Virus record (IMG/VR): IMGVR_UViG_3300025809_000123
Coordinates: 1-23,974 of that record
Length of the DNA: 23,974 nucleotides
Source of the DNA: a virus
Strand: one strand, 5' to 3'
The translations under genes and the position numbers were made by a program. This document shows, piece after piece, positions 4,942 to 23,974 of this stretch. Under the pieces are notes generated by a model that saw only the letters and a program-made list of their open reading frames with translations, was not told where the DNA came from and ran no database searches. Each line of letters starts with the position of its first letter. Positions within the stretch are counted from its first letter, which is position 1.

Positions 4942-7900
4942 TTATGTACACGATCCTATTAATGTTGCTCCTGGTATTGCTACACTTGCACAAACTCTTA
5001 AGGTTTGCCCAGATCCTACAGATATTGATTCTTGTTGACCGAAGCAATTAGTGTAATAGATTGCTGTTGGTCCAGTCACTTCATACTCATTACAAGTTGC
5101 TGATATTGTAGTGGTAGTGGTAGTAGTAGGTGCACCAGTAGTACTAGTAGTTGTTGTATTTGCACTTAATGATTTACACACACATGACATTATTGATGAA
5201 CCTGATGTTATATTTATTCCAGAATCAGCTCCATTTATAAGAGTGTAAGGTGCAGTGGGTGAAAGAATATATGATTGTGATAACGAGTCAAATATTATAA
5301 TATTATTTTCATACTCAAAAATAACTTTTCCTTCTACAGAACCTATATTAGCTTCAGTATTTAAAACTCCAGTGGAATATTCATATTCTGAAATATAATA
5401 AATAGATGATAAAGTATCTTTATTTACAACTAATACTCTACCATTAGTAGTGTACAACATGTTACTTATTGCTTCTCTATTATTCTGTAATGTAAACTTT
5501 GTTGTACCTGTAGCAGCTAAAGTTGTTATATCTAATTCTATTCCATTTGCTGGAGAACTATCATCAATAGCAATTAATGTTGTGTCATCTATAGCTACAA
5601 TAGAATCTACTGTTCCAAAACCTATTGGTAAAGTTATTGTTCTTTTAGGACCAGTCGCAAGCTCATTTCCAGTTGCCACAAATGGATCTAGTTGATCAAT
5701 GTCCCACTCTTTAATATCTGAGGACACTGACCAAAATTTAGTTGACGTTAGAGCTATATCCGAAGGACTTGTATATCCAGGAATTGTTAAGTCTACTAAA
5801 GTTAGATTTCTTGATTGAGGGTTAGCTGTACTAACTCTATTGTTTCCTAAATCTAATATTAAGTTGTTACATTCTTTTATAAAAGGAATTCCAGTAGTGG
5901 TAGTTGTGGTTGTCTGTACACAACTACAATCGTACATGTCAGATATTATTCCATTATATATTTGAAACACACTATTGTTAGATCCATAAGTTTCGTTTGT
6001 CCAATACCACCCATCAGGAGCAGGGGTGCAATCACCATTGCTTCCTAAGAACGCCTGTTGACCTATTTCTAATCTATAATTTACTTGTATGATAAAACCA
6101 ATAGGAAGTGTAGAATTTGTAGGATCTTGAACATTACTTGTAAGTGTAACAAAACCTGCTGCATCACAAGCATCTTTTGCATTTCCAGAACTTATAACTG
6201 GAGACTGTCCAACTATTTGATAACCTTCAAATATTGCTTTTTCAACCACTGTTGAAGGTCTTGCACATATTGTAGTGGTAGTCGTAGGAGGAACAGTTAT
6301 AATTCCAGTACCACCTGAAAGTTCACAACTTGTTGGTACAAAGAATCCACCTTTCATAGTACAATCTTTACTTGTAGTAGTAGTAGTTGTAGTTGTAAAT
6401 AAAGGGTTACTTGTAGTAGTGGTTGAAGTTGTAACAATTAAAGGACTTTTAACTGGTCCTGCTATTACTGATAAAGGTGTTTGTGTTACACAGCATGTGT
6501 TTGTACCTGAGTAATAAAAATTGTTTTCCCCTACGTAAAAATTAGGTAGGTATGAATGAAAGGATATCCAACTATTACTATTAAAATCAAAAGACATTGT
6601 CCAAGATTTATTGCAGAAGTAACTTTCATCATCTAAAGAAATTATTCTTATTGGTGGATCTATCTCTCTATTTGTTGTAGTAGTAGTTGTTGTATCATCT
6701 GTAATTGAATCTTTATCAGTAGTAGTAGTTGTAGTTGTGATTTCTTCTTTAGTAGTAGTAGTGGTAGTTGTTATTATATCTCCACAAGAGCCCTGTGCTA
6801 TAAGACCTATATTACTACGTACTATTTTACTAGCACATATTTCAATACCTTCACAAATTGGATCACCACATTCAAGTAAAATAGTTTGTGTTTCAAATTC
6901 TCCACAAGGAACATATTGTATATTTATAGAACCGTCAAATGGTTGACTTTTATATAAAGTACAAATTGACTCTAATGGTGTTGGTACTTCTAAGTTAAAC
7001 GAGGATGCACCTGTTGCTAACTCAACATAAAAATCTCCTGTTTCTTCATTATATTTAATATCATCACTAAGAGGTGTGTAGTCAAGTTTAGTAATAATTA
7101 CTCTTTCAAACTTACTATCATATACACCATGTAATCCAATACCATTAAAGTGATTGTCAGTATTTACATTAGGAAAGTGTTGTAGTATTTTAAAAGGTAA
7201 GTGATCTGTCATAAATCTATTTACACCAGAACCATATCCAGTAAGGTCTGCTACCTGACCACCTCTTACTAAAAATACTTGACCTCTTTTTGCATCTGCA
7301 GTTATTTGCCCTTGAGGTATTTTTAATAAAAACTTATTCTGAGCTCCTACATATCCAAGATCTGTTTCAGCAAAATCAATAGGTGGAGATGAATCAAATA
7401 GATTAGGGTTGCCTATATAAGCCGCTTGAGGATTACTAGTATCAATAGTTAGCAAGTTGTTATACAACAGTGACTTATTCTCAAAACGTGCAAGTATTGC
7501 TTTATTCTGAATACCATCTAATGATGTAAGATTCCCATAGTTTTGTGGAAAATCATGAAAAGATAATGCTCTATAAACTAGCCAGTTGTTTACTCTAACA
7601 TCAGCACTTGTAGTAGCAGCGTCAGAATAAATAGCTCTAAAAGGATACACTGTGTAGCATAAATCTTCTTTCCAGTCAGGAGGAAGATGTGTAAATACAT
7701 TTTCTTTATTTTGTTTAGAAAATGTTACATTATAGTAATACGTATTATCTTGAACAATAGGTACGTTTGTTTCTTGTAACCAATCATCAGGAATACCAGA
7801 GCTTACATGAGGCCAGAAGTCTCCTTCTTTATTATTAAATGCTTGACGTAAATCTGTATTATATACAGTCTCACAATAAAAATTAGGAATACCGTATGCA

Positions 7901-10900
7901 AATAAATACATAAATCCATCATAAAAAGTTCTATATGAACCCCCTGTCTCAGGATCTATTGAGGATGGGTCATTAGGACAATCTAAATTATGAGCTTTAT
8001 ATGAAAAGAAGTTTGCAGCTATAGTGCCATCAATTTCAGCATTTTCTAGTATTGATCTTGAGGAATGCCAAAACCTAGGATATGCTATGTTTCCAATTTC
8101 ATCAAAGAACACGTCACTATCAACAGGAGCACCCACTCTATTGTCAATAAAGAAAGGAAGTTTAGTTTTATATGCAAACCTAGATATAAATATATCTCCT
8201 CCAAATATAGTTGATGTCCCACCTGTATCCCTCTTAGCTTGATATCCTGTATCTACAGTATCATATGAGTATATCTGTCCGTATTGATTAACTACAATAT
8301 TTTTCATTGATGCATAGTACGACACAACAGACAAGTCAAATTCTTTTTCAGGAGATGAACATGTTCCAGCACTACCAATAGTATATCTTGATTTGTCTAT
8401 AATAGAAGGTTCTCCAGAAGGAGTTTTCAAACTATTCGTATCACTTGGAAAAGGTATGTAACTTACACTAGAATTATTTGTAAAATCTCTATTCTCAATT
8501 GTTTTTATAAACACTGAGCTTTCTCTATTCCAATTGTTTACATTATATTCATTTGGTGCAAGGGATTGTACTCCAGGTATTAAGTATCTTGCAAAATCAA
8601 TATCTCTTTGTTTAATACCTACAAAACTTGTTCCAGAACCACTGCCAGACTTATTATTACCAATATCAAATGAATAATCATAACTAGCTCTAGAGTTATA
8701 TGACTGTGCATAATTTCTTCTAGTTATACCGTTTATATATATTGTTAAGTATGTTTGATATATAGTAAATGCTACACTTATATTAAAAGTAGTTGTCAGA
8801 CCTGCAACATCACCTGCACTCTTTAATGCATCTTGCTGTGCTTCTAAAGAAAGAAGTTTATATTTAGCATTATCTTTAACTTCAGCAAAGTGACCTTTAC
8901 CTGCACCAAACATTACACTTTCAAGCTTTAATACATTTCCTAAGAATGGCTGTCCAAAAGATGTATCTGGTGAGTTAAATATTTGTCTATAAGAAAGACC
9001 TTCTTCATCATTTAATTCTGTAATTGGTTTAAGTGGTTCTTCTAATTTACATCCTAATGTAGATCTTCTACTTTTTTTAGTATCAGTAATTTCTCCAGGA
9101 GGCATTTCTTCTTCTGCTGTAAGTTGATTTATCCTTTCTACTGTACAAGGCCAAAACTCACTACTGCCATATTGCTGAGGAGCAACACCGCCTTGAGCAA
9201 CTCTTGCAAACTCAGAATCATTAGCAGAGGAGCAAAAACAACTCCACCCTTCTAACCACTCATTGGTATAAACCTCTGCACTATTATCATCTGTAAAAGG
9301 ATCGTTCCAATACGCACCCCAACTAGCACAAGTTTGTGAAGCTATTTCGTAAACATCATAATTACCAGGACCTATTAAAATCCTACCAAGAAGAGCAGTT
9401 GGTCTTGTAAGAGAACAGATTTCAATTTGTGTGTCTAATTCAATAGTTGCTTCTGCAACTCTACCATTTAAAGCACTTGTGTATTCATATACTCCTTGCT
9501 CATCATTTATTGTAATTTCAATAAATCCACTACCACCACCAAGAAAATCCTGCCAAGAGAATATTGTTTCAGTTGAAGGTAAATATAATAACCAAGGTTC
9601 TGATTCGTCAGTCCAAGCGTTATTAGTTTCAGATATATAAGAATCACCTCCTAAATCATTATAAGGATAATTTGGATAATAATATTCTTGCTCATCTCTA
9701 GTGTAAGTGTTTACATTCCTGAGCATACCCTTTGCTATTACAGACTTATTAGTTCCTCTGTCTGCTCTTATAATCTTGTATCCAACAATGTCATCTTTTA
9801 AATCGTCTGATAAATCAGATGTAAAAATTAATGAATTAATTTCACTATTGTTAACACGTACACCTAATGGAAATACTGCATCATCTTGCATAGTAGGTAC
9901 AATCTGATCATTATCATAAACAATTTGACCGTTCTCAATAATAGGGCTAACTAAAACATCTGGAAATTTATGGTGTCTAATTTTTTGTCCAGCTAAATCT
10001 CCCCACACATCATCTTGACAGGGATATTCTTCTGTAGATTCCCAAAATGCAAATTCACCATATTGGTAAGGTCCTTTATAACTTGTGTCTGTAGAATCAT
10101 AGCCTGAAGAAAACTCAGAAACTGTTGCTGTATTATAAACTTTCCAATATGATTTATATCCTACATCACCTATATAGTAATCAGGTTCACCAATAAAATC
10201 ACTATTTGTACTTGGTATATCTTGAGGGTTGTCTACAGGTGGATTAACTTGTCTACCTGGAATATGAAAACCATCTGTTTGTTTACCGTTTCGTAATAAG
10301 AATACTATTTCAAATGCATATACCTCATCACGCATATATCCACGTAAGTTAGTAGCATTTAGTTCATCTGCATAGTTTTCACTTGCTGGAATTCTATGTG
10401 TTTCCCACTTAAGTTCTATTTGACTAGCAATAGACTGATAATTAATTCTATCAATAGATGTAAGGTTGTCCCATACAAGAACATCTTGCACAGCTGTAAC
10501 ATCTTGAGCTATATCATAATATGGAAACTTCTCAAAAATATCAATCATTGCTAATTGAATAGGTGTTTGATCTGATCCTGTATAAGTGATATCTTTAAAA
10601 GGTTCTTCAATATTATAAGTACCCACTAATTCAGCAGAGCTTATATTATTAATAGTTTTTATTACAGCTAAATTAAAGTACTGAAACTGCCCTGTTATAT
10701 CTAAATCATTTACACTTATAACAATAGACTTTCCAACAGGATAGTCAAAGTTTACTGTTGTTACAAACTCATCAGCAATAGGTGTTGGGTTTGTTACAGA
10801 GTAGTAAGATGTAAGCTCATTACCACTTGCATCTGCATATTGAACTGCAAACTGATAAGTTCCTGCAACTAAAGATCCTACATTTTCAACTTTGGAAACT

Positions 10901-11513: not shown

Positions 11514-12488
11514 TTAATTATTGCGTCTTCTTCTACTTCCGTATCTATTGGTTCGATTAGGTAACTCATACATATTGAACCTGTTTAAATCTTTTTTAAT
11601 CCTTCTTTGCTTTTCCCAAGGTGTTTGTTTTTTAACCTCAATCTCTGCCTCTATATATTTTTCATTATATTCCTGCTTGTAGTATGCTAACTTCTGTTGA
11701 AGCTGATTAAAAGTTTCATCATTTGTTTGATTAGTTAATATTTCAAACACTTTAAACTTAATAAAAGCTTCTACATATTCAGCTATACGATAATTATCAG
11801 GAACCAATTGATTACCTATATCATCATACTCAGCAGAATAAAACAATAAGTGAACTACACCATTTCTAAAATTAGTGACAAATTTATTGTCTCTAATATC
11901 AAAAGAATCATAAGTAGCAGAACCAGGAGTAAACTCACGAACTGGTGGAGCAAAGTTGTTCCAGTCACTTCTATAATTTACATCACATTGTTTTCTAGTA
12001 GATATATTTCCTGGTTTTAATAAATAACTATGTCTGTATGATCTAGCTATTTCATTGTTTGTTTTGTATACAGCTTGAACTAATTCAGGCATACAAGTAC
12101 CATCACAACTTGGATGTTGACATTCAGGATTATTACAAGGAGTTCCTCCTATTGTTAGTGGGGATATTTGTATTGTTGTTGCGTTAGCTGCTTGTGAATA
12201 GAATGATGTAGCAGAAGGATAAGGGTTCCCTGGTATAGCTGTACACATCCAGGCTTCTCTAACTGCATGAAAGTTATCTGGTAATCTTGCTTCAAAGTCT
12301 TCTATAAATAAAACTTGTTCACTAATTATGTAAGTAGTTCTTCCCAATTTCTTTAAACATTTGTCTAAGTATGTAGGGAATAACAAATCATCTACTGCAC
12401 CAGTATCAAAGTAACTTTTAAGTTCTTCTTTTACAGTTGCATATAGAGGCTCTGGTGATACGAAATTATATTTATAATAGTATGACAT
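11514..12488 (-). CDS. crAss-like ring/connector-type neck protein
   Basis: 324 residues. The N-terminal part, YATVKEELKSYFDTGAVDD followed by LLFPTYLDKCLKKLG and DFEARLPDNFHAVREAWMC (residues 16-82), resembles a structural protein conserved beside the muzzle gene in crAss-like phages and thought to form one of the rings below the portal. Four cysteines and a histidine cluster at C118, C123, H125, C128 and C132, spaced like a small metal site. A later stretch, KTNNEIARSYRHSYLLKPGNIS, is also typical as I recall. The C-terminus is basic (ends RNN after a GSRRRR run), compatible with contact to DNA or an acidic partner. It lies 3 bases after the IHF-like gene and 5 bases before the muzzle gene, in one operon. 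The exact ring number cannot be assigned from sequence alone. No catalytic motif is visible. Confidence 0.7.
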   Translation of the reverse strand: MSYYYKYNFVSPEPLYATVKEELKSYFDTGAVDDLLFPTYLDKCLKKLGRTTYIISEQVLFIEDFEARLPDNFHAVREAWMCTAIPGNPYPSATSFYSQAANATTIQISPLTIGGTPCNNPECQHPSCDGTCMPELVQAVYKTNNEIARSYRHSYLLKPGNISTRKQCDVNYRSDWNNFAPPVREFTPGSATYDSFDIRDNKFVTNFRNGVVHLLFYSAEYDDIGNQLVPDNYRIAEYVEAFIKFKVFEILTNQTNDETFNQLQQKLAYYKQEYNEKYIEAEIEVKKQTPWEKQRRIKKDLNRFNMYELPNRTNRYGSRRRRNN

Positions 12489-12982: not shown

Positions 12983-13711
12983 TTAATTAGTAGGTTGTGC
13001 ATTAGGAGCTTGACCATCTATACCTTCATTACTCATATCATCTTTAAGTTGGAAGTATGTAGATAAAAGTTTTGTAGATGTCATAGCTAGTACTTGTTGC
13101 TCTAAGTAACCTGGAAGAGCATACTCTTTATCCAAAGGGTTTTTACAGTAATCTTCGTCAGTATAACTAAAACTTCCGCAATCACAATCTGGATACATTA
13201 TTTCATTAGGTACATCTTCTTCAAATAAAGCAGCTAGTCTTATTGACTTTAATAAAGGATTACTAATGTACATATAACCATTAGATATCCAAAAGTAACT
13301 TTGCTTTTTAATTATTGGTAACTTTAATAAATTTAAGTATCTATTTATTGTTATTTCTTTTAATTTAGTACCCTTTCCTCCCATAGCATTTATAGAATAT
13401 ACACCTTGAATTACATATTGGTAATTTCCTTCAGACATTCTTGGGAGTTTATATTTTGTTCTTGCAACTGTACATTCATCAGCAAACTCACAACATTCAG
13501 AGATAGGAACTTCAACCATTTCCAAACAAGGAATAGTAGTAAATAAAGTATCACTGGCCCAGAGTTTTCTTATATTAGTTTCTCTTTTAATTAAAGTTAA
13601 TGCGTTAACTCTAACTTCAGATGCTATTGCTCTATCAGTTATAAGCGCATCAGTAGATAAGATCTTATGTGTAGATCTTATATCTGAAACTAATTTTCTC
13701 AATGTTGCCAT
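12983..13711 (-). CDS. crAss-like ring/virion structural protein
   Basis: 242 residues. The text LRKLVSDIRSTHKILSTDALITDRAIASE (LVSDIRSTHK 7-16, ITDRAIASE 24-32), PCLEMVEVPISECC (61-74) and KYKLPRMSEG (86-95), followed by a region ending YFWISNGYMYISNP, is what I recall from a virion structural family that sits upstream of the IHF-like gene in crAss-like phages. Four cysteines at 62, 73, 74 and 80 could pair or bind metal. There is no signal peptide or membrane segment, in keeping with an internal assembly protein. The C-terminus ends in a low-complexity Pro/Asn tail. It starts 2 bases after the metallophosphoesterase stop, so the two are translated together. Assignment to a specific ring of the neck is not possible from sequence. 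Confidence 0.65.
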   Translation of the reverse strand: MATLRKLVSDIRSTHKILSTDALITDRAIASEVRVNALTLIKRETNIRKLWASDTLFTTIPCLEMVEVPISECCEFADECTVARTKYKLPRMSEGNYQYVIQGVYSINAMGGKGTKLKEITINRYLNLLKLPIIKKQSYFWISNGYMYISNPLLKSIRLAALFEEDVPNEIMYPDCDCGSFSYTDEDYCKNPLDKEYALPGYLEQQVLAMTSTKLLSTYFQLKDDMSNEGIDGQAPNAQPTN

Positions 13712-13713
13712 AA

Positions 13714-14958
13714 TTATATTCTTTCTTCAAATTCAGCCACCTTGCCTACTTTAAAATCATAAACTAAAGCTAGAGCAGCTCGTACACTATGTACAAAATT
13801 ATTATCTTTATGCCATCTATCTGTTCCAGATAAACTAGGCATTTGTTGTATCCTAACTCCTTTTATTTCCTTTGCCATATAATGATGCTTGTCACCTGTA
13901 TGAACTTCTCTGTATGTAGCATCTCCAAACCACTTACTATAAGTTGGATGTGTAGCAAATAGTAAAGGTAGCGCATCAATCTTACAATTACCATGATGAA
14001 ATCCAATAAATGTATTACCTACTACAGTTGCTTTAATCAATCCTTCTTCTCTAACAAATGATATGTTATCATCTTTTTTAAAGAATATATCTAAAGCATG
14101 AGCTAGATAATATGATTTAGTTCTATCATGATTACCTTGTACTAAAATAACTTCAACATGTTTAGCATTAGCCTTAAGCATCTTAATAGTATCTACTAGA
14201 ATATTAAATCCCATCTCATACTCTGAAGCATAATCTAATATTATATCCTGTGGGGTACCATTAGTTGTAGTGTTTTGATAATTATCCGTATGAAAAAAAT
14301 CATTAGATATGGGAAACACCACCTTGTTTATATCATAAATAGATCTAACTTTCTCTGTTAAAGATTCTGCTATATTTACAAATCTATTAGCTCTAGTCTG
14401 TGGATCATTGTCTCCATCAACATATCGTTTACCTAAATGGTAATCAGAAAGTGAGAGTTCAATATCTACTGTAGACCAATGTTTCCTTGTTTCTGGTGAA
14501 GGAATTGGAATGTAGTTAGATTTATAATTTTGTAAAAACTTACTAAAGTCTTCAGCAGTATAGTCTTTTGCTTCTTTCTTTCTTGAAAAGATTGAAGATG
14601 TAAACTTTCCGCTTGGTAAAACTTTAGACCAATAATTAGTAATAATGTATTTATCTAAGTCTATTTTGTGGAGCTTTGCTAGCTCTATATCATTTTTAGG
14701 CTCAAAGTCTAAAGTGATTGTACTTTCAATTGTGCCTTTTTCATTGTTTACTTTTTTTACAAACTCAATTTGCTCATTAAGTTTACCAGCCTCTTTGATA
14801 AAGTCTTCTGCAGGATCTTTATCTTGTTTCTTTATTTCCTTTAGTAATTCATTTACTTCATCTTCTGTAATATTTAATTTATCAGCATAAAACTTTTTAC
14901 TTTTCTTCCAAGCTAGTAATGATTTTAACTTGACAAGTAAATCTTCAGAGTAAGACAT
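13714..14958 (-). CDS. Calcineurin-like metallophosphoesterase with N-terminal HTH-like segment
   Basis: 414 residues. The metallophosphoesterase signature is complete and in order: DYH (D172, H174), SNDFFH (D220, H223, with Asn in place of the usual Gly before Asp), GNHD (275-278), GFHHG (H321/H322) and GDKHHY (G355-H359). These residues would hold a dinuclear metal site, and the enzyme should hydrolyse phosphomono- or diesters; SbcD/Mre11-type nucleases and phosphatases share the fold, so the substrate is open. Residues 16-47 (KKSKKFYADKLNITEDEVNELLKE, given in part) look like a small helix-turn-helix, suggesting nucleic-acid contact. It is the first gene after a terminator and an inverted repeat, and heads the neck/tail operon. 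The start at 14958 has no Shine-Dalgarno. Its presence among structural genes may mean DNA processing at packaging or ejection, which is inference. Confidence 0.85.
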   Translation of the reverse strand: MSYSEDLLVKLKSLLAWKKSKKFYADKLNITEDEVNELLKEIKKQDKDPAEDFIKEAGKLNEQIEFVKKVNNEKGTIESTITLDFEPKNDIELAKLHKIDLDKYIITNYWSKVLPSGKFTSSIFSRKKEAKDYTAEDFSKFLQNYKSNYIPIPSPETRKHWSTVDIELSLSDYHLGKRYVDGDNDPQTRANRFVNIAESLTEKVRSIYDINKVVFPISNDFFHTDNYQNTTTNGTPQDIILDYASEYEMGFNILVDTIKMLKANAKHVEVILVQGNHDRTKSYYLAHALDIFFKKDDNISFVREEGLIKATVVGNTFIGFHHGNCKIDALPLLFATHPTYSKWFGDATYREVHTGDKHHYMAKEIKGVRIQQMPSLSGTDRWHKDNNFVHSVRAALALVYDFKVGKVAEFEERI

Positions 14959-15131: not shown

Positions 15132-15356
15132 TTATTGGGGTTCCACTAGTATTTCTGTAGTGTTTGTACAGCTTCCAAAAGAGACTACTCTAATAATTTG
15201 TGTATCGTCAGGTATTTGATCTGTTGGATAACCTGCTAGTAATTGATCTCTAGTTATATCTGATTCAATTGGTGCTGAGTAGTTATTTACATCTGAGTAC
15301 AAGTAAAAAGGTCCTGTATCTACCCCTAGTATTGAAAATTGTATTGCTCCTGTCAT
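15132..15356 (-). CDS. Stand-alone small GPF/SDADG module protein (copy 1)
   Basis: 74 residues, made of little but the recurrent module: ILGVDTGPFYLYSDVNNY, then a GIS/DIT-type turn (SDITRDQLLAGY), then QIIRVVSFGSCTNTTEI. It aligns along its whole length with the 78-residue and 72-residue neighbours and with the N-termini of the 370-, 953- and 291-residue proteins. No signal peptide or membrane segment is present. It looks like a compact beta-sandwich with one cysteine near the end. It is the last gene before the terminator, 3 bases after the previous stop. Function unknown; because the module caps larger tail-type proteins, a role in virion attachment or decoration is the simplest idea. Confidence 0.8.
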   Translation of the reverse strand: MTGAIQFSILGVDTGPFYLYSDVNNYSAPIESDITRDQLLAGYPTDQIPDDTQIIRVVSFGSCTNTTEILVEPQ

Positions 15357-15359
15357 TTG

Positions 15360-15596
15360 TTATGTTATTAGTACTTGTTCGTAATTTTGACAATTAAAAT
15401 TTGCGTTCCTAACTCTAATTATAGTTGTACCAGCAGGAACAGGTGTTAAAAAACCAAAGAATCCTGTTAGTGATGCTATTGAAATACCTGTTGCAATTGG
15501 TGTTGTAAAACCATCTGCATCTGAAAATATATTTACAGGTCCAGAACAGACTCCTGCTGAAGTTAAGCTAATTCTTACATTTGTTGAAGATGCCAT
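15360..15596 (-). CDS. Stand-alone small GPF/SDADG module protein (copy 2)
   Basis: 78 residues. The module is clear: LTSAGVCSGPVNIFSDADGF, PIATGISIASLTG, VPAGTTIIRVRNANFNCQN. Compared with the other copies it has a few extra residues between the GIS helix/turn and the VPAGTTIIRV strand, and a second cysteine before GP that could pair with the conserved late cysteine. The start is preceded by an A-rich leader (eight A, then TAAAAT) with no Shine-Dalgarno, as usual in Bacteroidota. It lies 16 bases after the 370-residue gene and 3 bases before the next module gene. Function unknown. Confidence 0.8.
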   Translation of the reverse strand: MASSTNVRISLTSAGVCSGPVNIFSDADGFTTPIATGISIASLTGFFGFLTPVPAGTTIIRVRNANFNCQNYEQVLIT

Positions 15597-15612: not shown

Positions 15613-16725
15613 TTAGAAACAGATTGATATAGGGCTTAATATGTATCCATTACTGTCTACTCTAGCAGAGTATTCAGTAGAATTTGTATTGAGTCGTATT
15701 TTATAGTAGTTCCCATTTCCATTAAATGGGCTAGTTGCTCCAACATTGTTAAATATTCTATCATTTACACTAATCGTTCCAATTGATTGATGTTGTATAT
15801 AACAAAGAGTATCTATTGCTATGAAACAATCTGACGCACTTGGATTTGTTTGAGACGATATTCCTCCTGGATCTACACTTGGACTAGAACTTGTTGTTGT
15901 TGTAGTAGTTGGTGGTGTTACAAATACTGCAGAAAGACCATTTAAACTACAATCGCACGTAGTAGTAGTTGTTGTTGTTGGTGGGATAGTAGTAGTACTT
16001 GTTGTTGTACTTGTACTTGAACTTGTAGTTGTAGTTGTAGTTGGAATTATAACTACACCATCGAAAAACCAGTCTTGATTGAACGATTCCATTACATAAG
16101 ATTGGAAAAGTGGAGTTATTAATTCATCAACACAAGGATTACATATATCATTTGGTTGATATAAATTTCCATTTTGCACTACCTTATTTCCAAAATACCA
16201 AGATCCAGCTTTTTCATTAGTCATAGTTGCTTGTATAATAGCTCCAGCCTGAATAAGTAATTGACCAGATTGTGTAGCATTGCCTACACTTATTGTAGAA
16301 TCTACAACAGATATTCCGTCTACAGTTATTTCAAGATTTACAGTTCCTATAGTTGATGGAGTTTGACTTCGCAACTCCCAGTTAAACTTATAAGGAGGTG
16401 GTAATGTAGTAGTAGTTGTTGTTGTTGAACTGGTTGATGTAGTAGTAGATGTACTACTAGTACTTGTAGTAGATGTACTACTAGATGATGTTGTTGTAGT
16501 AGTTGGGCAATTAGTTGGTATGTCAATACAATTTTCACAGTTACCTACAGAGCAAACTCTAATAATAGTTGCACCTATAGGAAGTTCTACAACATAACCA
16601 GACTCTAATTCTGTAGCTGGTACTTGTGTTTCAAAAGGGGAAACATATCCATCTGCATCTGAAAATAAATCAAACGGTCCAGCAATGCCAGACGGAGGAA
16701 TAGTTATGGTTATTTGTATTAACAT
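15613..16725 (-). CDS. Modular tail/surface protein: GPF module plus Thr/Ser-rich linkers
   Basis: 370 residues. Residues 1-70 are the recurrent module in its cleanest form (SGIAGPFDLFSDADGYVSPF, then IGATIIRVCSVGNCENC). A Thr/Ser-only linker follows (about 75-107), then a beta-rich piece of about 115 residues (from YKFNWELRSQTPS), a second Thr/Ser linker (about 229-257), a short CDCSLNGLSAVF segment, a third Thr/Ser linker (about 273-283), and a C-terminal globular piece ending YILSPISICF. The layout is beads on a string, as in flexible tail fibres or adhesins; the Thr/Ser runs could be O-glycosylated, which is inference. It sits 27 bases after one stand-alone module gene and 16 before another. 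No homologue-specific function can be named. Confidence 0.8.
   Translation of the reverse strand: MLIQITITIPPSGIAGPFDLFSDADGYVSPFETQVPATELESGYVVELPIGATIIRVCSVGNCENCIDIPTNCPTTTTTSSSSTSTTSTSSTSTTTSTSSTTTTTTTLPPPYKFNWELRSQTPSTIGTVNLEITVDGISVVDSTISVGNATQSGQLLIQAGAIIQATMTNEKAGSWYFGNKVVQNGNLYQPNDICNPCVDELITPLFQSYVMESFNQDWFFDGVVIIPTTTTTTSSSTSTTTSTTTIPPTTTTTTTCDCSLNGLSAVFVTPPTTTTTTSSSPSVDPGGISSQTNPSASDCFIAIDTLCYIQHQSIGTISVNDRIFNNVGATSPFNGNGNYYKIRLNTNSTEYSARVDSNGYILSPISICF
15889..16044 (-). repeat. ACN/TCN triplet tracts encoding Thr/Ser linkers (second and third linkers of the 370-residue protein)
   Basis: On the plus strand these appear as runs of gta/gtt/tgt triplets at about 15958-16044 and 15889-15913, interrupted by a short coding segment. 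On the coding strand they are runs of ACT, ACA and AGT/TCA codons. Expansion or loss of triplets would stay in frame. Confidence 0.7.
16404..16503 (-). repeat. Triplet tract encoding the first Thr/Ser linker of the 370-residue protein
   Basis: About 33 consecutive Thr or Ser codons, with two near-copies of a block reading gtagatgtactactag on the plus strand. It separates the N-terminal module from the next domain. Confidence 0.75.
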
Positions 16726-16752: not shown

Positions 16753-16971
16753 TTATTGTAGTGTAATATCTAAAGAATTAATACACTTATATTTAGATGT
16801 AACTCTTACTACACTTGAATAGTCTGGTACAACAGAACTAGTATATCCAATTAATAAATCTGCTCTAGATATACCTGTTTCAAAAGGATCACTAAAGTTA
16901 TCTTTATCTGAATAAAGTTCAAAGTTATCAGCATCGGTGCCTATATTAGGTATTGTTAAAAGTACAGTCAT
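16753..16971 (-). CDS. Stand-alone small GPF/SDADG module protein (copy 3)
   Basis: 72 residues from the ATG at 16971. A longer reading from 16986 would add MLFII but would overlap the previous stop (16974-16976) and break the alignment with its paralogues, which begin directly with a short hydrophobic strand (compare MTVLLTIPNIG here with MTIIITLSFAG of the 953-residue protein). The module core reads DNFELYSDKDNF, PFETGISRADLLIGY, SSVVRVTSKYKCINSLDI; the GP pair is replaced by DN. It starts 2 bases after the Cys-rich gene. Function unknown, presumably the same as the other copies. Confidence 0.8.
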   Translation of the reverse strand: MTVLLTIPNIGTDADNFELYSDKDNFSDPFETGISRADLLIGYTSSVVPDYSSVVRVTSKYKCINSLDITLQ

Positions 16972-17312: not shown

Positions 17313-18473
17313 TTAAGGTATGTAAATTATATAATATGCTCCGTATCCAGGTTGCCAGTTAGCATGATCTTGCCCACCTCCTGTATTTGCTAGTGATACA
17401 CCAACATTTAAAGTTTGAGTAACTTCACTTGTTAATCCATTTGTAGCTGGAGATGATGTTCCTCTCATTGCGTATCCTAAATTACCACCAGTTGAATAAC
17501 CTTGTCTTATTTGTTGGTCAGTTTGAACTGGATCTTGAGTGTTAGCAGTACCTAATGACACTACCTTGTGAGTATGACTTGCTGGAGAAAGACTAGAAGT
17601 TACAGTTGAAACATGTGTATGTGGAGGTATTTGAGATGATTCTAACGTTACTCTATATGCTCCACTAGTAGTACCTAAACTCCATTCTGGAACTTCTCCA
17701 AGGACTGGAACTACAGCTGGATCAAGAGCACCGCCTCCAGGCATTCCTGTTGTAGATGCTACAACAACTCTTCCTCTAAGATCTGGAGTTCCATTAGCAC
17801 CATTACATAAAAATATTCTATCCCATTCACCTATACCAGCACCTGATCCATCAAAGTTACCTAAGCTTCCAAAATATGGTGTAGCAGAAAAGGGAACCAT
17901 TCTATTGTTAATTAAAGTTTGAGTTGGATTATTATTTATGTAGTTTTCAATATATGTATTTATATCTGAAATTGCAACAAAAGTGTTATTTACATATGTT
18001 ATAAAGTTATTTAGATTCTGTTGCACTTCACAAACTTTATCAATTACAGCTTGTATTACAGCTTGTGTATCAGTACTTGTATTAACTGTAGGGTCATCAG
18101 TAATACCTGGAACACTAAGACATCCTAGTATATATGGATCAGTAGGTACTTCTTCTTGGATAACACCTATTGTTTCTTCAATTTGACACAATGATTCAAT
18201 TATGGCCTTTAAATAATTATTTAAAGATAATGGATTACAGTCATCTAAGTTAGCCTGTACTGTAGGACATATTGCAGCTGATGGAACTATAGGAAATACT
18301 CCTGTTCCATCAAGTGTTGAACTTAAATAGGTTATTAAAGCCTGCTCTACAAATGATAGAGAGTCTCCATTTTTTATTCCTAAGACAGGGACATCTACCC
18401 CTGTATATTTAACGCATTTGTCTGAGCATACTTCAGTACATCCGTTATAGCAATTTGAGCAATTATTTGACAT
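17313..18473 (-). CDS. Tail-collar-domain fibre protein
   Basis: 386 residues. Residues 1-25 are Cys-rich (C5, C8, C12, C16, C20). Residues 60-190 are largely helical, with several Asn-rich stretches that could be coiled coil (QQNLNNFITYVNNTF, DINTYIENYINNN). The C-terminal half is a typical phage tail-collar/microcystin-dependent-protein domain: LCNGANGTPDLRGR (222-235), IPPHTHV (282-288), ASHTHK (298-303), and the closing HANWQPGYGAYYIIYIP (370-386), close to the usual HxNxQP...YII ending. Collar domains sit at fibre tips or shafts, and His residues there can bind metal. It lies 14 bases after the protease gene and 12 before the Cys-rich coiled-coil gene. Likely role: distal receptor-binding fibre or its tip. 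Confidence 0.85.
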   Translation of the reverse strand: MSNNCSNCYNGCTEVCSDKCVKYTGVDVPVLGIKNGDSLSFVEQALITYLSSTLDGTGVFPIVPSAAICPTVQANLDDCNPLSLNNYLKAIIESLCQIEETIGVIQEEVPTDPYILGCLSVPGITDDPTVNTSTDTQAVIQAVIDKVCEVQQNLNNFITYVNNTFVAISDINTYIENYINNNPTQTLINNRMVPFSATPYFGSLGNFDGSGAGIGEWDRIFLCNGANGTPDLRGRVVVASTTGMPGGGALDPAVVPVLGEVPEWSLGTTSGAYRVTLESSQIPPHTHVSTVTSSLSPASHTHKVVSLGTANTQDPVQTDQQIRQGYSTGGNLGYAMRGTSSPATNGLTSEVTQTLNVGVSLANTGGGQDHANWQPGYGAYYIIYIP

Positions 18474-18487
18474 GATATTTTATATTT

Positions 18488-19885
18488 TTAAGGTGTTGGT
18501 ATACAAGGGTTATTTAATGTATTAGTTAATCCTGCTTGGTAATGTAACTTACCGTTACAGAGTTTAGTTCTTTGGTCACTTCCTCCAGTTTCTGTTACAT
18601 ACTGTATAGTATCTTTTCTAACAGTGGATTGATTTGCAGCTGCAGCATCCCACCATTGAACTCCTAGCTGTTCAGCAATTCTATCTATTCTACAAAGATA
18701 AAAAATTGTACTACATGAGTTTTGACCTGGTGTACCAAAGCAACATGGGTTACCAGCATACTCTGGAGGCATCATTCCCATACTGCAACTACCAGCAAAA
18801 AGTAGGCCTATTAATTTCTTAACACCATTGAATTCAGCATATACAGCAGACCCTGAATCACCTTGAAGTCCTGGATTTAAACATCCTGGTTGTTGAGAGG
18901 ATGGTGTAGTATCGTCTGGTCGAATTACAGAAATGATATCATTGTAGTCTACAGGCCCAAGAGCAGTACCTACATTTGGTAAATTTATTGATCCTGTATA
19001 TACTCTTAGGTGTCCACATACTCCTTTACCTCTAGCTCCTGAAGTTCTTCCTGATGTCCAAATTTCTGGATTTGTATTATATATATCATCTAATTCAGCT
19101 GTTGTAGCAAACGGAGGATTTTGATTAGTTATTACATCTTCAAGACCTATAGGTTGCCATGATGCATATTGTTGTGACGAAGGTACACTTTCAGTCTCAA
19201 TATCTTGAAAGTTTACAGAATATATTGCAGCATCCACTTGATTAACAAACCCTGTACTAGCTAAGTGAATTGGAGCATATCTTAAACTTATTCCTACTTC
19301 ATTAACAGGTTGAGTATAACCACCAGCTGCTTCTGTAGCTTGATATACTCTATTTACTGGATCATAATCGTTTTCTACAGTAAGGGCAGCTAAGTTTCTA
19401 TCGCTTGTGTATGTAGGATTTTCTATAGTTACGTGATTATTAGTAAGTGCTACTATAGCTCCTGATGCTACATCTTGTACAAATGTTCCTAATGTACCAA
19501 CACTTGGATAGTTATTAGTACTAGCCATTGTTATTCCTCCTCTTAAAGGTCTAGTAAATTGTCTGTTAGTAAATTGTCCAGAGCTAGATCCATTCCATCC
19601 TCCACAATCAGAACATGTAGCAAATAGTTGAACTGGAGATTGTTGTATTATATCTATCTTAATAACTTTATCACCTATGGTAATTTCACTTGGTATAATT
19701 TCTTCAGAAGACAACTCTTCAATTGGTTTCTTTTCAGTAACTCCAATTACAATAGCATCATCTCCTGTAACTTTACCAGCAGAAACTTTTTCACCTATTC
19801 CAACAGAAGCAATAATAGTATTACCTTTTGCAAAGGTCTTTGCTATATGATCTATTTTATCTTTTATTTCTTTTGTTACTTTCAT
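18488..19885 (-). CDS. Chymotrypsin-fold (trypsin-like) serine protease
   Basis: 465 residues. The catalytic triad is readable: ALTNNH (H151), NQVDAAIYSV (D218) and GLQGDSGSAVY (S344). Spacing of 67 and 126 residues fits a chymotrypsin-fold enzyme with insertions. The N-terminal 80 residues (SVGIGEKVSAGKVTGDDAIVIGV in part, then KKPIEELSSEEIIPSEI) form a pre-domain of the kind I recall before bacterial trypsin-like peptidases with a GVG...IP pattern. Cysteines are frequent (C91, C94, C290, C335, C367, C381/C382, C391, C398), suggesting disulphides or metal. No signal peptide or transmembrane segment is seen, so the enzyme is probably virion-borne or acts in the host cytoplasm. It lies 3 bases after the 953-residue gene and 14 before the collar gene. 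Likely substrates: tail proteins themselves or host surface proteins (inference). Confidence 0.88.
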   Translation of the reverse strand: MKVTKEIKDKIDHIAKTFAKGNTIIASVGIGEKVSAGKVTGDDAIVIGVTEKKPIEELSSEEIIPSEITIGDKVIKIDIIQQSPVQLFATCSDCGGWNGSSSGQFTNRQFTRPLRGGITMASTNNYPSVGTLGTFVQDVASGAIVALTNNHVTIENPTYTSDRNLAALTVENDYDPVNRVYQATEAAGGYTQPVNEVGISLRYAPIHLASTGFVNQVDAAIYSVNFQDIETESVPSSQQYASWQPIGLEDVITNQNPPFATTAELDDIYNTNPEIWTSGRTSGARGKGVCGHLRVYTGSINLPNVGTALGPVDYNDIISVIRPDDTTPSSQQPGCLNPGLQGDSGSAVYAEFNGVKKLIGLLFAGSCSMGMMPPEYAGNPCCFGTPGQNSCSTIFYLCRIDRIAEQLGVQWWDAAAANQSTVRKDTIQYVTETGGSDQRTKLCNGKLHYQAGLTNTLNNPCIPTP

Positions 19886-19888
19886 ATT

Positions 19889-22750
19889 CTATTGATTTAT
19901 TTCTGATTCAAACCATGTCCAAATTGTCTTAGGTCCTGATGGGTTAGGAGTAGTACTACTAGTTGTTGTGGTTGGTGATGGGCCAAATGATGTAATACCA
20001 TCACTAACTCTACATATAGGAGTGGAAGCAAAGTCATCTGGTGACCTAGATGGTAGACCCATTTCCACAGGCACATCTGCTGGATCTAGTTGTGTCCACT
20101 GTAAAGTTTCTAAATCAAATCTCCAAACTCCTGCAAGCTCTGGCGAAACTGTACTATTATCACTACTAGCTATGTAAATACCTCCATCATATATACCCAA
20201 TGATGCAGTTCCTCTTACACCTGCTGGTAAGTTCACAACTCCATCTAGTGCATTTGTTGTATAATCAAATTGTAATAAGTATGCTGGATTACTATTATCT
20301 GGCTGTAATGGTGGAACATAACCTACAGCTATTATCTTATTTGGAGTGCCATCTGTTTTAAATGTCAATACTAAATCTCCTTGAAGCACATATCCGTGAT
20401 TTACTCCTACATCTATTTTAACACTGTAAGATAATGTTGTTCCTGAAAGCTCCCACTCTAATATTTGACTTACAGCAGTTGGAAAAGGTTGACTAAAATT
20501 TTGAAGCCAAATTCCTAAGAATTTAGTGTCAGTCACTGCTTCCATGATGAAACCAAAACTTCTTACATCACCTACTGGATAATCAATAAATTGTCCATCG
20601 AATGTAGTGTCTGAAGGAATTCCATTTATATCTGTGTATCCATATCTTGCTAAACTTTTAACACCTGTAACAAATGATGGAACATCTACAATAATGTAGT
20701 TTTCACTTAATGCAAAGTTAGGTGAATTTGTTGCAGTGTTTGATGGTAACAATATTTCTTGTTGAGTGTTTGTGTTTACATCCCAAGCAAAGTATTTTTT
20801 AAATGAATTTTGTCCAGGTAAACATCTTCCTGGATTAGCAAGACAACTATTACCAGCTGAGTCTGTAGAGTAAACTAATCTACAATTTAGAGGTGGTACA
20901 GCACATCCTAAAAATAATTTTCCACCAGTTGGCGCATTACCATATATAGTCATAGATGTATAGTTAGCAAGACTAGTAACTTTAAACTCCCCATCCCCAG
21001 AATTGTTTACAACAGGATTACCAGGCAAATTAGGATTTACCATCCCACCCCATAGTTTATTACCATCAACTTGAACTAAACATCCGTCATTTATAGAAAG
21101 TGTTGGAGTTCCACCATTAGTTTCTACATAATATACATCTCCAGCTGTACCATCTGCACTACTATTTAGAACACTAGCTCTAATTGGAATATCATTAACT
21201 GCTACAGGGAAATCAATTGTAATACTAAAGTCAAAACCTTGAACAGCTAAAAGTACATTTTCTCCCTCAGAATCAGGTGATGTAAGTCCACTACATCCTA
21301 AGAAACCACCATCTGTATTGCTTACAAACCAAGCACCTAAGTCATTGGATAAACTTGCTGTACACGTCATTCCAAAGTAAGTAAATGTCTGAGGCCCTAG
21401 GTAATTATTATTAGAACTATCATACAAACCATCAAATAGGTTAGGGAAATAAGTAAGACCACAATTAGGGTCAGGATCACCTGATATAAAATTAATGTTA
21501 GAACAGCTTGTAGCTGAACTTAACCAGTCATTTGAACTATTTACAAAAATATTGGATGTTAAGTTGTTAGGAATTGATTGATTTACTGTGTATACCTCTA
21601 AAGTTTCTGGTTGTAAAATTTGTGCTAATCCATTTACACCCCAGAAAGGTACATCTTTAGCTCCATTATAACTTTCTGAAAATTCTGGCAATCCATAATC
21701 TTGAAGTAATATTTTAGGTATAACCTGATTGTTTATACTAAATTCAGGACTAGATGGAGTTACAGGAAATACGACTAAATAATTACCTACTGCATATTGC
21801 TGACCCTCTCCACTAGGAGTAAGATCAACTCTATATCCTAATATAAGTTGTCCTGAATTTGTATAAGTAAGATTACTCAACTTACCTGTATTGCTTGCTG
21901 GAGTAGCTGCCCACTTAGAAGATATATCATTTGAGGAAATTGTAATGTTTCCTACAGTTGCAATACTAAATTCAGAAAGATAAATTGAACCAGTACCACC
22001 AGTACCTTCTGATGGTGCTGGAGCATATTCATTACCTGTTCCAACAATAAGTGTATTATTATCTATTGCAGTCATAGCCCATACAGAAGTTCCTCCCAGA
22101 TTATGTGCATAAGTCTGTCCCATAGGAACTGTTATCTCTCTTACATAAGTTAATGTAGGAGCATTTGGTGTAGTTCCATCTATGTCCCACTCTCTAATGT
22201 ATACCTTATCATCATTATCATTTGTTGGATTAGAACCTTGATCAACTATACTAGCTAACCATAGTTTATCTTCTGTAGCACAAATAGGTCTTTCAATACC
22301 CACTGTCTCAGTAAAGTCATTGGGAACTAATACAGTTGTACTTGTGTTAGTATTAAAGTTATATACAGCTACACTTCCTGAATTACCACCATCAGTAGAC
22401 CATAAACACGGTATACCAAATGGATCTGGGAAATAAGTTGTTGAAGTAGTTGTAGTTGAAGAACTAGATGTAGTTGTTGTAGTTGTAATATTACAAAGTA
22501 TCTCTCCAGCAAAATCACAATTTGGTGTAGCACAAGTGTAAATATCTGTTTCAGTATTTAAACAAAGACCACTTAAGTCATCTAATCTAACAACAGTAGT
22601 TCCTGCAGGTGCATTAACCTGAAATCCAGCTAATAAAGCTGCTTTAGATATGCCTTGTGCAAACGGTGTAGCAAAATTAGTTGCGTCAGAATATAGGTCA
22701 AAAGGACCTGTTTCATTACCTGCAAAACTTAATGTTATTATTATTGTCAT
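19889..22750 (-). CDS. 953-residue modular tail protein: GPF module, Thr linker, two propeller-like halves
   Basis: Residues 1-72 are the recurrent module (NETGPFDLYSDATNF, GISKAALLAGF, PAGTTVVRL). A Thr/Ser linker follows (about 89-105). From 115 a propeller-like region begins, CLWSTDGGNSG then VYNFNTNTSTTVLVPND, with blades such as KLWLAS, IREWDID (185-191) and NNTLIVG. A different beta-rich, Cys-containing part lies between about 440 and 620. A second propeller-like half starts near 622 with CRLVYSTDSAGNSC and WDVNTNTQQEILLPSN, clearly parallel to the first, and includes ILEWELSG. A short Thr/Ser linker (TTTTSSTTPNPSG) precedes the C-terminal WTWFESEINQ. IREWDID...NNTLIVG recurs in the muzzle protein as IKEWDID...DTTLIAI. 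No catalytic motif was found. Likely a fibre or spike component binding carbohydrate or protein (inference). The stop is TAG. Confidence 0.8.
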   Translation of the reverse strand: MTIIITLSFAGNETGPFDLYSDATNFATPFAQGISKAALLAGFQVNAPAGTTVVRLDDLSGLCLNTETDIYTCATPNCDFAGEILCNITTTTTTSSSSTTTTSTTYFPDPFGIPCLWSTDGGNSGSVAVYNFNTNTSTTVLVPNDFTETVGIERPICATEDKLWLASIVDQGSNPTNDNDDKVYIREWDIDGTTPNAPTLTYVREITVPMGQTYAHNLGGTSVWAMTAIDNNTLIVGTGNEYAPAPSEGTGGTGSIYLSEFSIATVGNITISSNDISSKWAATPASNTGKLSNLTYTNSGQLILGYRVDLTPSGEGQQYAVGNYLVVFPVTPSSPEFSINNQVIPKILLQDYGLPEFSESYNGAKDVPFWGVNGLAQILQPETLEVYTVNQSIPNNLTSNIFVNSSNDWLSSATSCSNINFISGDPDPNCGLTYFPNLFDGLYDSSNNNYLGPQTFTYFGMTCTASLSNDLGAWFVSNTDGGFLGCSGLTSPDSEGENVLLAVQGFDFSITIDFPVAVNDIPIRASVLNSSADGTAGDVYYVETNGGTPTLSINDGCLVQVDGNKLWGGMVNPNLPGNPVVNNSGDGEFKVTSLANYTSMTIYGNAPTGGKLFLGCAVPPLNCRLVYSTDSAGNSCLANPGRCLPGQNSFKKYFAWDVNTNTQQEILLPSNTATNSPNFALSENYIIVDVPSFVTGVKSLARYGYTDINGIPSDTTFDGQFIDYPVGDVRSFGFIMEAVTDTKFLGIWLQNFSQPFPTAVSQILEWELSGTTLSYSVKIDVGVNHGYVLQGDLVLTFKTDGTPNKIIAVGYVPPLQPDNSNPAYLLQFDYTTNALDGVVNLPAGVRGTASLGIYDGGIYIASSDNSTVSPELAGVWRFDLETLQWTQLDPADVPVEMGLPSRSPDDFASTPICRVSDGITSFGPSPTTTTSSTTPNPSGPKTIWTWFESEINQ
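22438..22493 (-). repeat. Triplet tract encoding the Thr/Ser linker of the 953-residue protein
   Basis: About 16 Thr/Ser codons in a row, the same composition as the linkers in the 370-residue and muzzle-type genes, placed between the N-terminal module and the first propeller-like half. Confidence 0.7.
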
Positions 22751-22774: not shown

Positions 22775-23974
22775 CTAAACTCCATATCCAAAGGCTATTA
22801 ATGCATTTCTTATTTCATCATACCAGTATTGTTCTGGGTTAGCAGGACTATTATCTAGATCTGCTGACCATGCAAATCTTGCAGGACTTGCGCTTGGGAA
22901 GAATTGTACATTATCTACAGGACCATATGCACTAGCAGGTTTTTCTGCAGGTTGGTTAGGTTGTCCTGCATTAAAGCTTGTAAGAACATCTGCACCATTA
23001 ATTCCTGCATTAAGAAGCCCAGTAGGTGAAACTAAAGGTTTTATTGTTGAGAAAGTATATGTGGATGTAGCTTCTGGATGGAAAAACTTAGCTCTATATA
23101 TATTAGTGTTTCCTGCTGCAGCTTCTATATCTGTAACAAAATCTCTTAGATTTCCTATATCCTCTTTTATTCTTGCGTTTGTTTGAACCTCTCTAGTTTC
23201 CCATGCGTTTCCTGTATTAAAGTCACCATCCATATTATATCCTGTTCCTGATTCATCACCAAAGGCCATAATTACTAAACTATCTGCATTAGGGAAATAT
23301 CCTGCTCCATCTATAGTGCCTCCTAATCCTTTATTTGAAAGCATTTGAATTTGTCTTTCTTCACCACTATGACACCAGTATACACGAGCTTCAAACTCAT
23401 CACTACCATTAGTAGCTCTATCTGTATTTCCACTTGCTTCAGTTCCTCCTGTTGCATAGAAATCTTGAAGTAAGTTTCTAAGATTACTTGTATTTGCATA
23501 ATCAGCAGATTTCTGAGCATCTGTTAGATTAAAAGTTACAACACCACTAGATCCAATGTCTGCAGTTAATGCAACAGAGATTCCACCACTATCCAAAAGA
23601 TCAAAAGTAGGTTGATTAGTAGAAGGATCAAATCCTGAAAATTCAACAAAAGTTCCTGCAGGTATTGAAGGGTGTATAGCTTCCATACCATCTACAATAC
23701 ATAAAAATGCTTTACTTGCTGTATCACCGATACCACCTTGCTGTTCAGTAACTCTAATATTTGCATTAGTAGATGAAACTAAACTAATCTTCTCTTGCCC
23801 TACTGATTGAGTTCCTGAGACTGTAGATTTTACACCTGTAACACTAGCTATCTGTGCTGTTACTGCTATTGTATCATCCATAGAACCTGAAGTATCACTC
23901 CAGAAAGTAAAGTATGAGTTCCCTGTAACTGGTATATCTGGATCAGGAGCAACACAGTCTCCTGCTGCAGTAAC
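22775..23974 (-). CDS. VWA-domain protein with MIDAS motif (5' end beyond window)
   Basis: The frame is open through base 23974, so the ATG at 23881 is internal and not the start: it is the Met of the motif DTSGSM. The visible 399 residues begin VTAAGDCVAPDPDIP and run into SYFTFWSDTSGSM, a hydrophobic strand followed by a perfect MIDAS DxSxS (D27, S29, S31 of the fragment). Further VWA-like landmarks are LRNLLQDFYATGG (about 165-177) and IMAFGDES (about 235-242; D240 candidate metal residue). An insert of about 100 residues between the MIDAS and the LRNLL helix is Gly/Ser/Thr-rich and beta-like. VWA domains bind proteins through a divalent metal and are common in adhesins. It precedes the 953-residue gene by 24 bases. 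Likely a virion-surface adhesion protein (inference). The stop is TAG. Confidence 0.85.
   Translation of the reverse strand, partial: VTAAGDCVAPDPDIPVTGNSYFTFWSDTSGSMDDTIAVTAQIASVTGVKSTVSGTQSVGQEKISLVSSTNANIRVTEQQGGIGDTASKAFLCIVDGMEAIHPSIPAGTFVEFSGFDPSTNQPTFDLLDSGGISVALTADIGSSGVVTFNLTDAQKSADYANTSNLRNLLQDFYATGGTEASGNTDRATNGSDEFEARVYWCHSGEERQIQMLSNKGLGGTIDGAGYFPNADSLVIMAFGDESGTGYNMDGDFNTGNAWETREVQTNARIKEDIGNLRDFVTDIEAAAGNTNIYRAKFFHPEATSTYTFSTIKPLVSPTGLLNAGINGADVLTSFNAGQPNQPAEKPASAYGPVDNVQFFPSASPARFAWSADLDNSPANPEQYWYDEIRNALIAFGYGV

Follow-up and report, generated by a model that had tools for sequence, protein, structure and literature searches.

The window analysed here, i.e. the whole stretch of 23,974 bases, is crAss-like as judged from its sequence, in that it encodes the Crassvirales tail ring proteins 1 and 2 and shows crAss-like synteny (Table 1). 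In crAss-like relatives, the usual gene order is a 188-residue protein, one or more long modular proteins, the protease that is the subject of this work and a collar protein, followed in most of them by small modules, an exonuclease-like gene, ring protein 2 and ring protein 1. The original prediction had placed the protease between a fibre-type protein and a collar protein. Both are present, the former upstream (953 residues) and the latter downstream (386 residues), but only the former is a conserved partner. The collar block lies elsewhere in L088-L095, where the protease is still found beside the long modular, fibre-type gene, and in L080, L097 and L108, the pair formed by the protease and long-protein genes is located outside of the fibre block. 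The constant neighbour of the protease is thus the upstream long modular protein. The DNA-repair-exonuclease-type gene (phrog_704) found amid the structural genes of the window (13714-14958, minus strand) keeps its position in most relatives.

Table 1. Features of the window related to the putative protease and its surroundings.
Feature	Position	Strand	Basis or remark
Crassvirales tail ring protein 1	11514..12488	-	Pfam CrAss_Ring_1, E 1.5e-07
Crassvirales tail ring protein 2	12983..13711	-	Pfam CrAss_Ring_2, E 1.5e-19; anchor for the comparison of relatives
Collar/tail-fibre-type protein, 386 aa, adjoining the protease	17313..18473	-	PHROG tail fibre/tail families; not a constant partner
Predicted NAL1-like serine protease, 465 aa, ATG start	18488..19885	-	Triad alignment, profile comparison, structure model
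Predicted N-terminal NAL1-type domain, about residues 1-90	19616..19885	-	hhalign to bacterial NAL1-like proteins from residues 22-24; NAL1 structural alignment over model residues 1-420
Predicted trypsin-fold protease domain, about residues 112-414	18644..19552	-	Structural alignment with alpha-lytic protease, Z 17.0, 191 residues
Predicted catalytic H151 codon	19433..19435	-	Invariant in alignment
Predicted catalytic D218 codon	19232..19234	-	Invariant in alignment
Predicted catalytic S344 codon (GDSGS)	18854..18856	-	Invariant in alignment
Conserved C-terminal segment, residues 415-465	18491..18643	-	Q450, G452, T454, L457, C443 and C461 invariant; mostly outside the NAL1-aligned region
Modular appendage protein, 953 aa, directly upstream of the protease (3-base gap)	19889..22750	-	GPFDLYSDA N-terminal module, Thr-rich linkers, Kelch-like repeats, C-terminal tag
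Tag peptide GPKTIWTWF, residues 939-947 of the 953-aa protein	19910..19936	-	Motif common to the upstream proteins

The proposal that H151, D218 and S344 form a catalytic triad in its usual sequence contexts (TNNHV, NQVDAAI and GDSGS, respectively) was borne out by comparison with relatives. These were collected in three scans of viral contigs, the widest of which gave 165 matches, 80 of them kept. In an alignment of 33 relatives and in one of 55, with identities going down to 39% or less, the three residues do not vary, and the larger alignment reveals that the GDSGS box and seven Cys residues (C91, C94, C290, C335, C398, C443 and C461) are invariant as well. Since triad invariance is not expected of a random or decaying ORF, the 465-residue product is very likely an active enzyme, in agreement with the original prediction, which the confident trypsin-fold model described below also supports. 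As anticipated, the protein sequence (MKVTKEIKDKIDHIAKTFAKGN...) is devoid of an N-terminal hydrophobic export signal. As for the label 'trypsin-like', it is appropriate for the fold but not beyond it, given that the closest relatives belong to another type of protease. The Arg/Lys specificity of trypsin is conferred by an Asp residue in the S1 pocket, at classical position 189. The presumed equivalent here, residue 338, six positions before S344, is an invariant Pro rather than an Asp, and therefore this specificity should not be assumed.

Pfam and NCBIfam searches gave no name to the protease ORF, and PHROGs labels it 'protease' (phrog_20754, E 6.5e-17, residues 5-233). With 55 sequences as input, a structure model with a pLDDT of 81.5 and a pTM of 0.88 was obtained, compared with a pLDDT of 30.8 from 10 close sequences. 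The best Foldseek match of the model is NARROW LEAF 1 (NAL1), the product of a rice yield gene (E 3.1e-16). Using VIA-align 2, the model and NAL1 were aligned with a Z score of 28.5 over 333 residues and an rmsd of 3.3, covering model residues 1-420 and hence the N-terminal domain, and simple trypsin-fold proteases, such as alpha-lytic protease, rank after NAL1. From the resemblance of the model to active proteases of the trypsin fold, the three triad residues are predicted to come together in space.

Sequence comparisons are in line with the structural ones. A profile of 33 relatives gave a weak match to NAL1 (E 0.012), yet a collinear one, encompassing the N-terminal domain, the TN-x-HV box and GDSGS, with H151 facing the second His of the HH pair in the TNHHV motif of NAL1 and S344 its GDSGS motif. 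Searches with the corresponding stretch of NAL1 identified bacterial NAL1-like relatives that are located on plasmids and match the Pfam NAL1 families. The phage profile aligned by hhalign with such a protein of Rhizobium (E 1e-18, 282 columns), through the N-terminal domain, TNNHV/SNNHV, N-x-VD, GRTTG and GDSGS, and with one of Paenibacillus (E 2.2e-9); D218 corresponds to the N-x-VD motif of a bacterial NAL1-like relative. The window protein itself matches neither Pfam NAL1_N (PF25608) nor Nal1_C (PF25819), and the best of the 55 members reached E values of 0.0034 and 0.015, which do not pass the Pfam cut-offs; we therefore call the protease NAL1-like rather than a member of these families. 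The alignments, the model, Foldseek and VIA-align all point to a trypsin/chymotrypsin fold with an intact triad, preceded by a NAL1-type N-terminal domain and with His, Asp and Ser at equivalent positions and in the same order. On the basis of sequence and model comparisons, the phage protease is thus NAL1-like over both domains. It differs from NAL1 by its low identity (about 15%), its longer loops, its seven invariant Cys residues, its additional conserved C-terminal segment and, on the phage side, its link to appendages and to a tag peptide.

We found no significant relative of the protease among named phage records, nor any in a profile scan of bacterial and archaeal genome contigs, and its best plasmid match, a CHAT-domain protein, was taken as a chance hit. 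The fold is shared by an unannotated protein of Virus NIOZ-UU157 (A0A7S9XDX3; TM-score 0.87), which is 39% identical and apparently a member of this family. In an archaeal virus, Aeropyrum coil-shaped virus, the putative serine protease 25-326 (L116, positions 5950-6930) is a full member of the PHROG to which the window protease also belongs, but it lacks a crAss-like appendage context.

The 953-residue upstream protein ends with a Thr-rich linker and the peptide GPKTIWTWF. While the bodies of the upstream proteins differ between relatives, they all have in common this short peptide, hereafter called the tag, usually at the C terminus behind a Thr-rich linker. The pattern T-[IVL]-[FWY]-[TIM]-x-F is present exactly once in each of the 78 proteins encoded directly upstream of a protease gene, and it does not recur among the 239,775 remaining residues encoded by these loci. 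As the pattern was written from the very loci in which it was first counted, independent checks were made. A DNA pattern for TIWTWFE gave 26 matches, 6 of them without a protease; in 3 of these 6, the peptide falls within a called ORF, in each case with no Thr-rich linker around it. The tag is encoded by 33 distinct DNA sequences, with codons that vary at conserved residues (ACT, ACA, ACC or ACG at the fourth position, TTT or TTC at the last), and its distance to the protease start varies between loci, which indicates that the constraint acts on the peptide. In L064 and L065, the tag is internal, between Thr-rich linkers, and is followed by 471 and 401 residues, respectively. We thus discarded the possibility that it represents a translation or start-site signal of the protease gene, from whose ATG it is more than 1 kb away in these two loci.

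We then compared loci with and without a protease, fetched through ring protein 2. Twenty-two syntenic crAss-like loci, with near-copies among them, have no protease and harbour at the same place an appendage gene with the same head domain, many of them with Thr-rich linkers. The tag is absent from the orthologous appendage genes of all 22, which led us to reject the idea that it is merely inherited with the appendage gene. Searches of 18 whole protease-free records, several of which are fragments, detected neither a protease nor a Thr-linked tag. According to the ring protein 2 tree, the presence of the protease has changed at least four times, and L032 and L034, which have both protease and tag, nest among phages that have neither. 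Identical ring proteins are found in L213, a 12.6-kb fragment with no protease and no tag, and in L215, which has both. Two loci, L215 and L216, have a tag and no protease nearby. The genome of L215 (G017) encodes two proteases some 52 kb away from that tag, whereas L216 is a fragment whose metagenome also yielded L108, and that protease pair is present in L108.

The coupling extends to subtypes. Among 44 non-redundant adjacent pairs, the similarity of the tags tracks that of the proteases (Mantel r 0.54, 0 of 2000 permutations), a correlation inflated by the usual adjacency of the genes and for which linkage in cis alone could suffice. G017 is informative in this respect, as it encodes two proteases that share 52% identity, along with two Thr-linked tags, one of them far from the proteases. 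The first protease, PRO1, adjoins the tag GVNTIFTYF; the proteases of L031-L035, to which it is 86-89% identical, go with tags of the form GVNT[VI]FTYF. The second, PRO2, is 77% identical to the protease of L097 (tag GFNTIYTHF) and 59% to that of L091 (GVYTIFTHF), and it is paired with the unlinked tag GIRTIYTHF, the subtype of which fits. Subtype matching thus holds even in the absence of linkage, in trans pairing seen in this one genome. A side observation is that L080 harbours tandem proteases of different subtypes outside of the fibre block (6001-8569), and that its genome encodes two tagged proteins.

The protease is extended at its C terminus by Thr/Ser-rich linkers and appendage modules in 21 of 87 protease ORFs, and the modules fused to proteases also occur in neighbouring appendage proteins. 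One module follows the tag in L065 and the protease in L103, with 84.8% identity between the two copies, as would be expected if both positions meet in the particle.

The original prediction of an appendage-linked role is strongly supported by these observations and can be sharpened to the upstream 953-residue protein and its C-terminal tag. Among the roles that had been put forward, we favour that of a virion-borne protease. The NAL1-like serine protease would be an active, structural part of the virion and the 953-residue modular protein a surface appendage, whose C-terminal GPKTIWTWF peptide, on its flexible Thr-rich linker, would bind the cognate protease and thereby place it at the appendage end. 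There, the enzyme might cut host surface or extracellular proteins, giving the phage easier access to its receptor; host surface proteins are a natural guess for the target of an appendage enzyme. We consider that this entire scenario stands about an even chance of being correct. Docking is favoured by the C-terminal or internal position of the tag, by the appendage modules borne by the protease and by the module shared between L065 and L103. The alternating pattern of the tag (T, aromatic and variable residues alternating with I, T/I/M and F) would suit beta-strand pairing with another strand. It is tempting to speculate, more tentatively, that the two genes constitute a portable two-part module of crAss-like phages, in which a NAL1-type protease is brought to the virion surface by a short cognate peptide borne on a Thr-rich linker of the appendage, and distinct tag subtypes pair with distinct protease subtypes, such that a single virus can operate two pairs in parallel; we regard this generalization as somewhat less likely to be right than wrong.

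Maturation of the tail proteins, another of the roles initially proposed, retains a lower probability. The tag would then be a cleavage site, and the enzyme, which need not stay in the virion, would trim the appendage in the course of assembly or free the domains that follow the tag. Such processing would also explain why tag and protease are so strictly coupled and match in subtype. The invariant T and F residues with aromatic and aliphatic positions between them would fit a protease cleft as well, I-[FWY]-[TIM]-x-F possibly filling it with F as P1, and L064 and L065 have whole post-tag domains that could be released. Nevertheless, in 76 of 78 cases cleavage at the tag would shorten the protein by no more than about a dozen C-terminal residues, and both the fusions of proteases with appendage modules and the occurrence of the same module after tag or protease fit co-assembly better than release. 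We consider processing less likely than docking, of which it is the strongest competitor. Alternatively, the protein might only fold or cap the appendage tip, similar to T4 gp38 for gp37, with proteolysis being secondary or self-directed. The position of the protease gene directly downstream of the appendage gene is consistent with such an assembly factor, and T4 gp38 is a released chaperone (PMC12892980), but the invariance of the triad in 55 of 55 relatives would be unexpected if catalysis were dispensable, which makes this reading improbable. Lastly, the destruction of a host protein after infection, such as the defence factor of the original prediction, with an incidental position among fibre genes, would agree with the absence of an export signal and with the location of the protease outside the fibre block in G017, but it is very improbable, as moved proteases keep a tagged appendage protein beside them (L080, L097), proteases of relatives are fused to appendage modules and protease-free relatives have no tag, and we found no support for it here.

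A functional parallel to the docked protease might be found in T2-type phages, in which gp38 is placed at the tip of gp37 (PMC12892980). There, a separate protein sits at the tip of a fibre protein, as the protease would here, although the two systems are unrelated. Unlike the phage protease, T2-type gp38 contains poly-glycine helices and serves in receptor binding, and that paper does not describe its being recognized through a short, portable peptide carried by a Thr-rich linker. The poly-glycine helix sandwich characteristic of gp38 is not found in the protease model, which consists of a trypsin fold and an N-terminal domain. As for crAss-like phages, the structure of crAss001 revealed fibre hubs and disulfide-stabilised tails (PMC10172136). 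It has in common with the window ring proteins 1 and 2 and fibre genes in the structural region, but the word 'protease' is absent from the text of that paper. In the literature searched, we came across no paper dealing with a protease of this kind in crAss-like phages. The new element is the coupling of a tag peptide on the upstream appendage protein to a NAL1-like protease. If our interpretation is correct, phages attach surface enzymes by means of small exchangeable peptide tags, and the NAL1 family, so far associated with a rice yield gene, gains a viral branch whose partner is evident. The two sequence features, tag and protease, would then each account for the other, a direct test of what the phage protease does would become possible, and tag-protease pairs could serve as orthogonal binding pairs.

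Other features of the window deserve mention. Long Thr/Ser-rich linkers join interchangeable modules in the products of 15613-16725 and 19889-22750 (minus strand), as in many appendage proteins of relatives. The GPFDLYSDA-type module, about 65 residues long, is found repeatedly, both in small genes of its own and at the N terminus of long modular proteins (15132-15356, 15360-15596, 15613-16725, 16753-16971 and 19889-22750, minus strand) and might be a common attachment domain. The gene at 22775-23974 (minus strand) encodes the C-terminal part of a long appendage protein, which has about 960 residues in L004, with the sequence SDTSGSMDDT, which includes a DxSxS motif like that of von Willebrand A domains. 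At the other edge of the window, downstream of genes for 2188- and 291-residue proteins, a 1351-residue protein (2-4054, minus strand) contains two HExxH motifs (HEIEH and HEDLH), as found in zinc metalloproteases.
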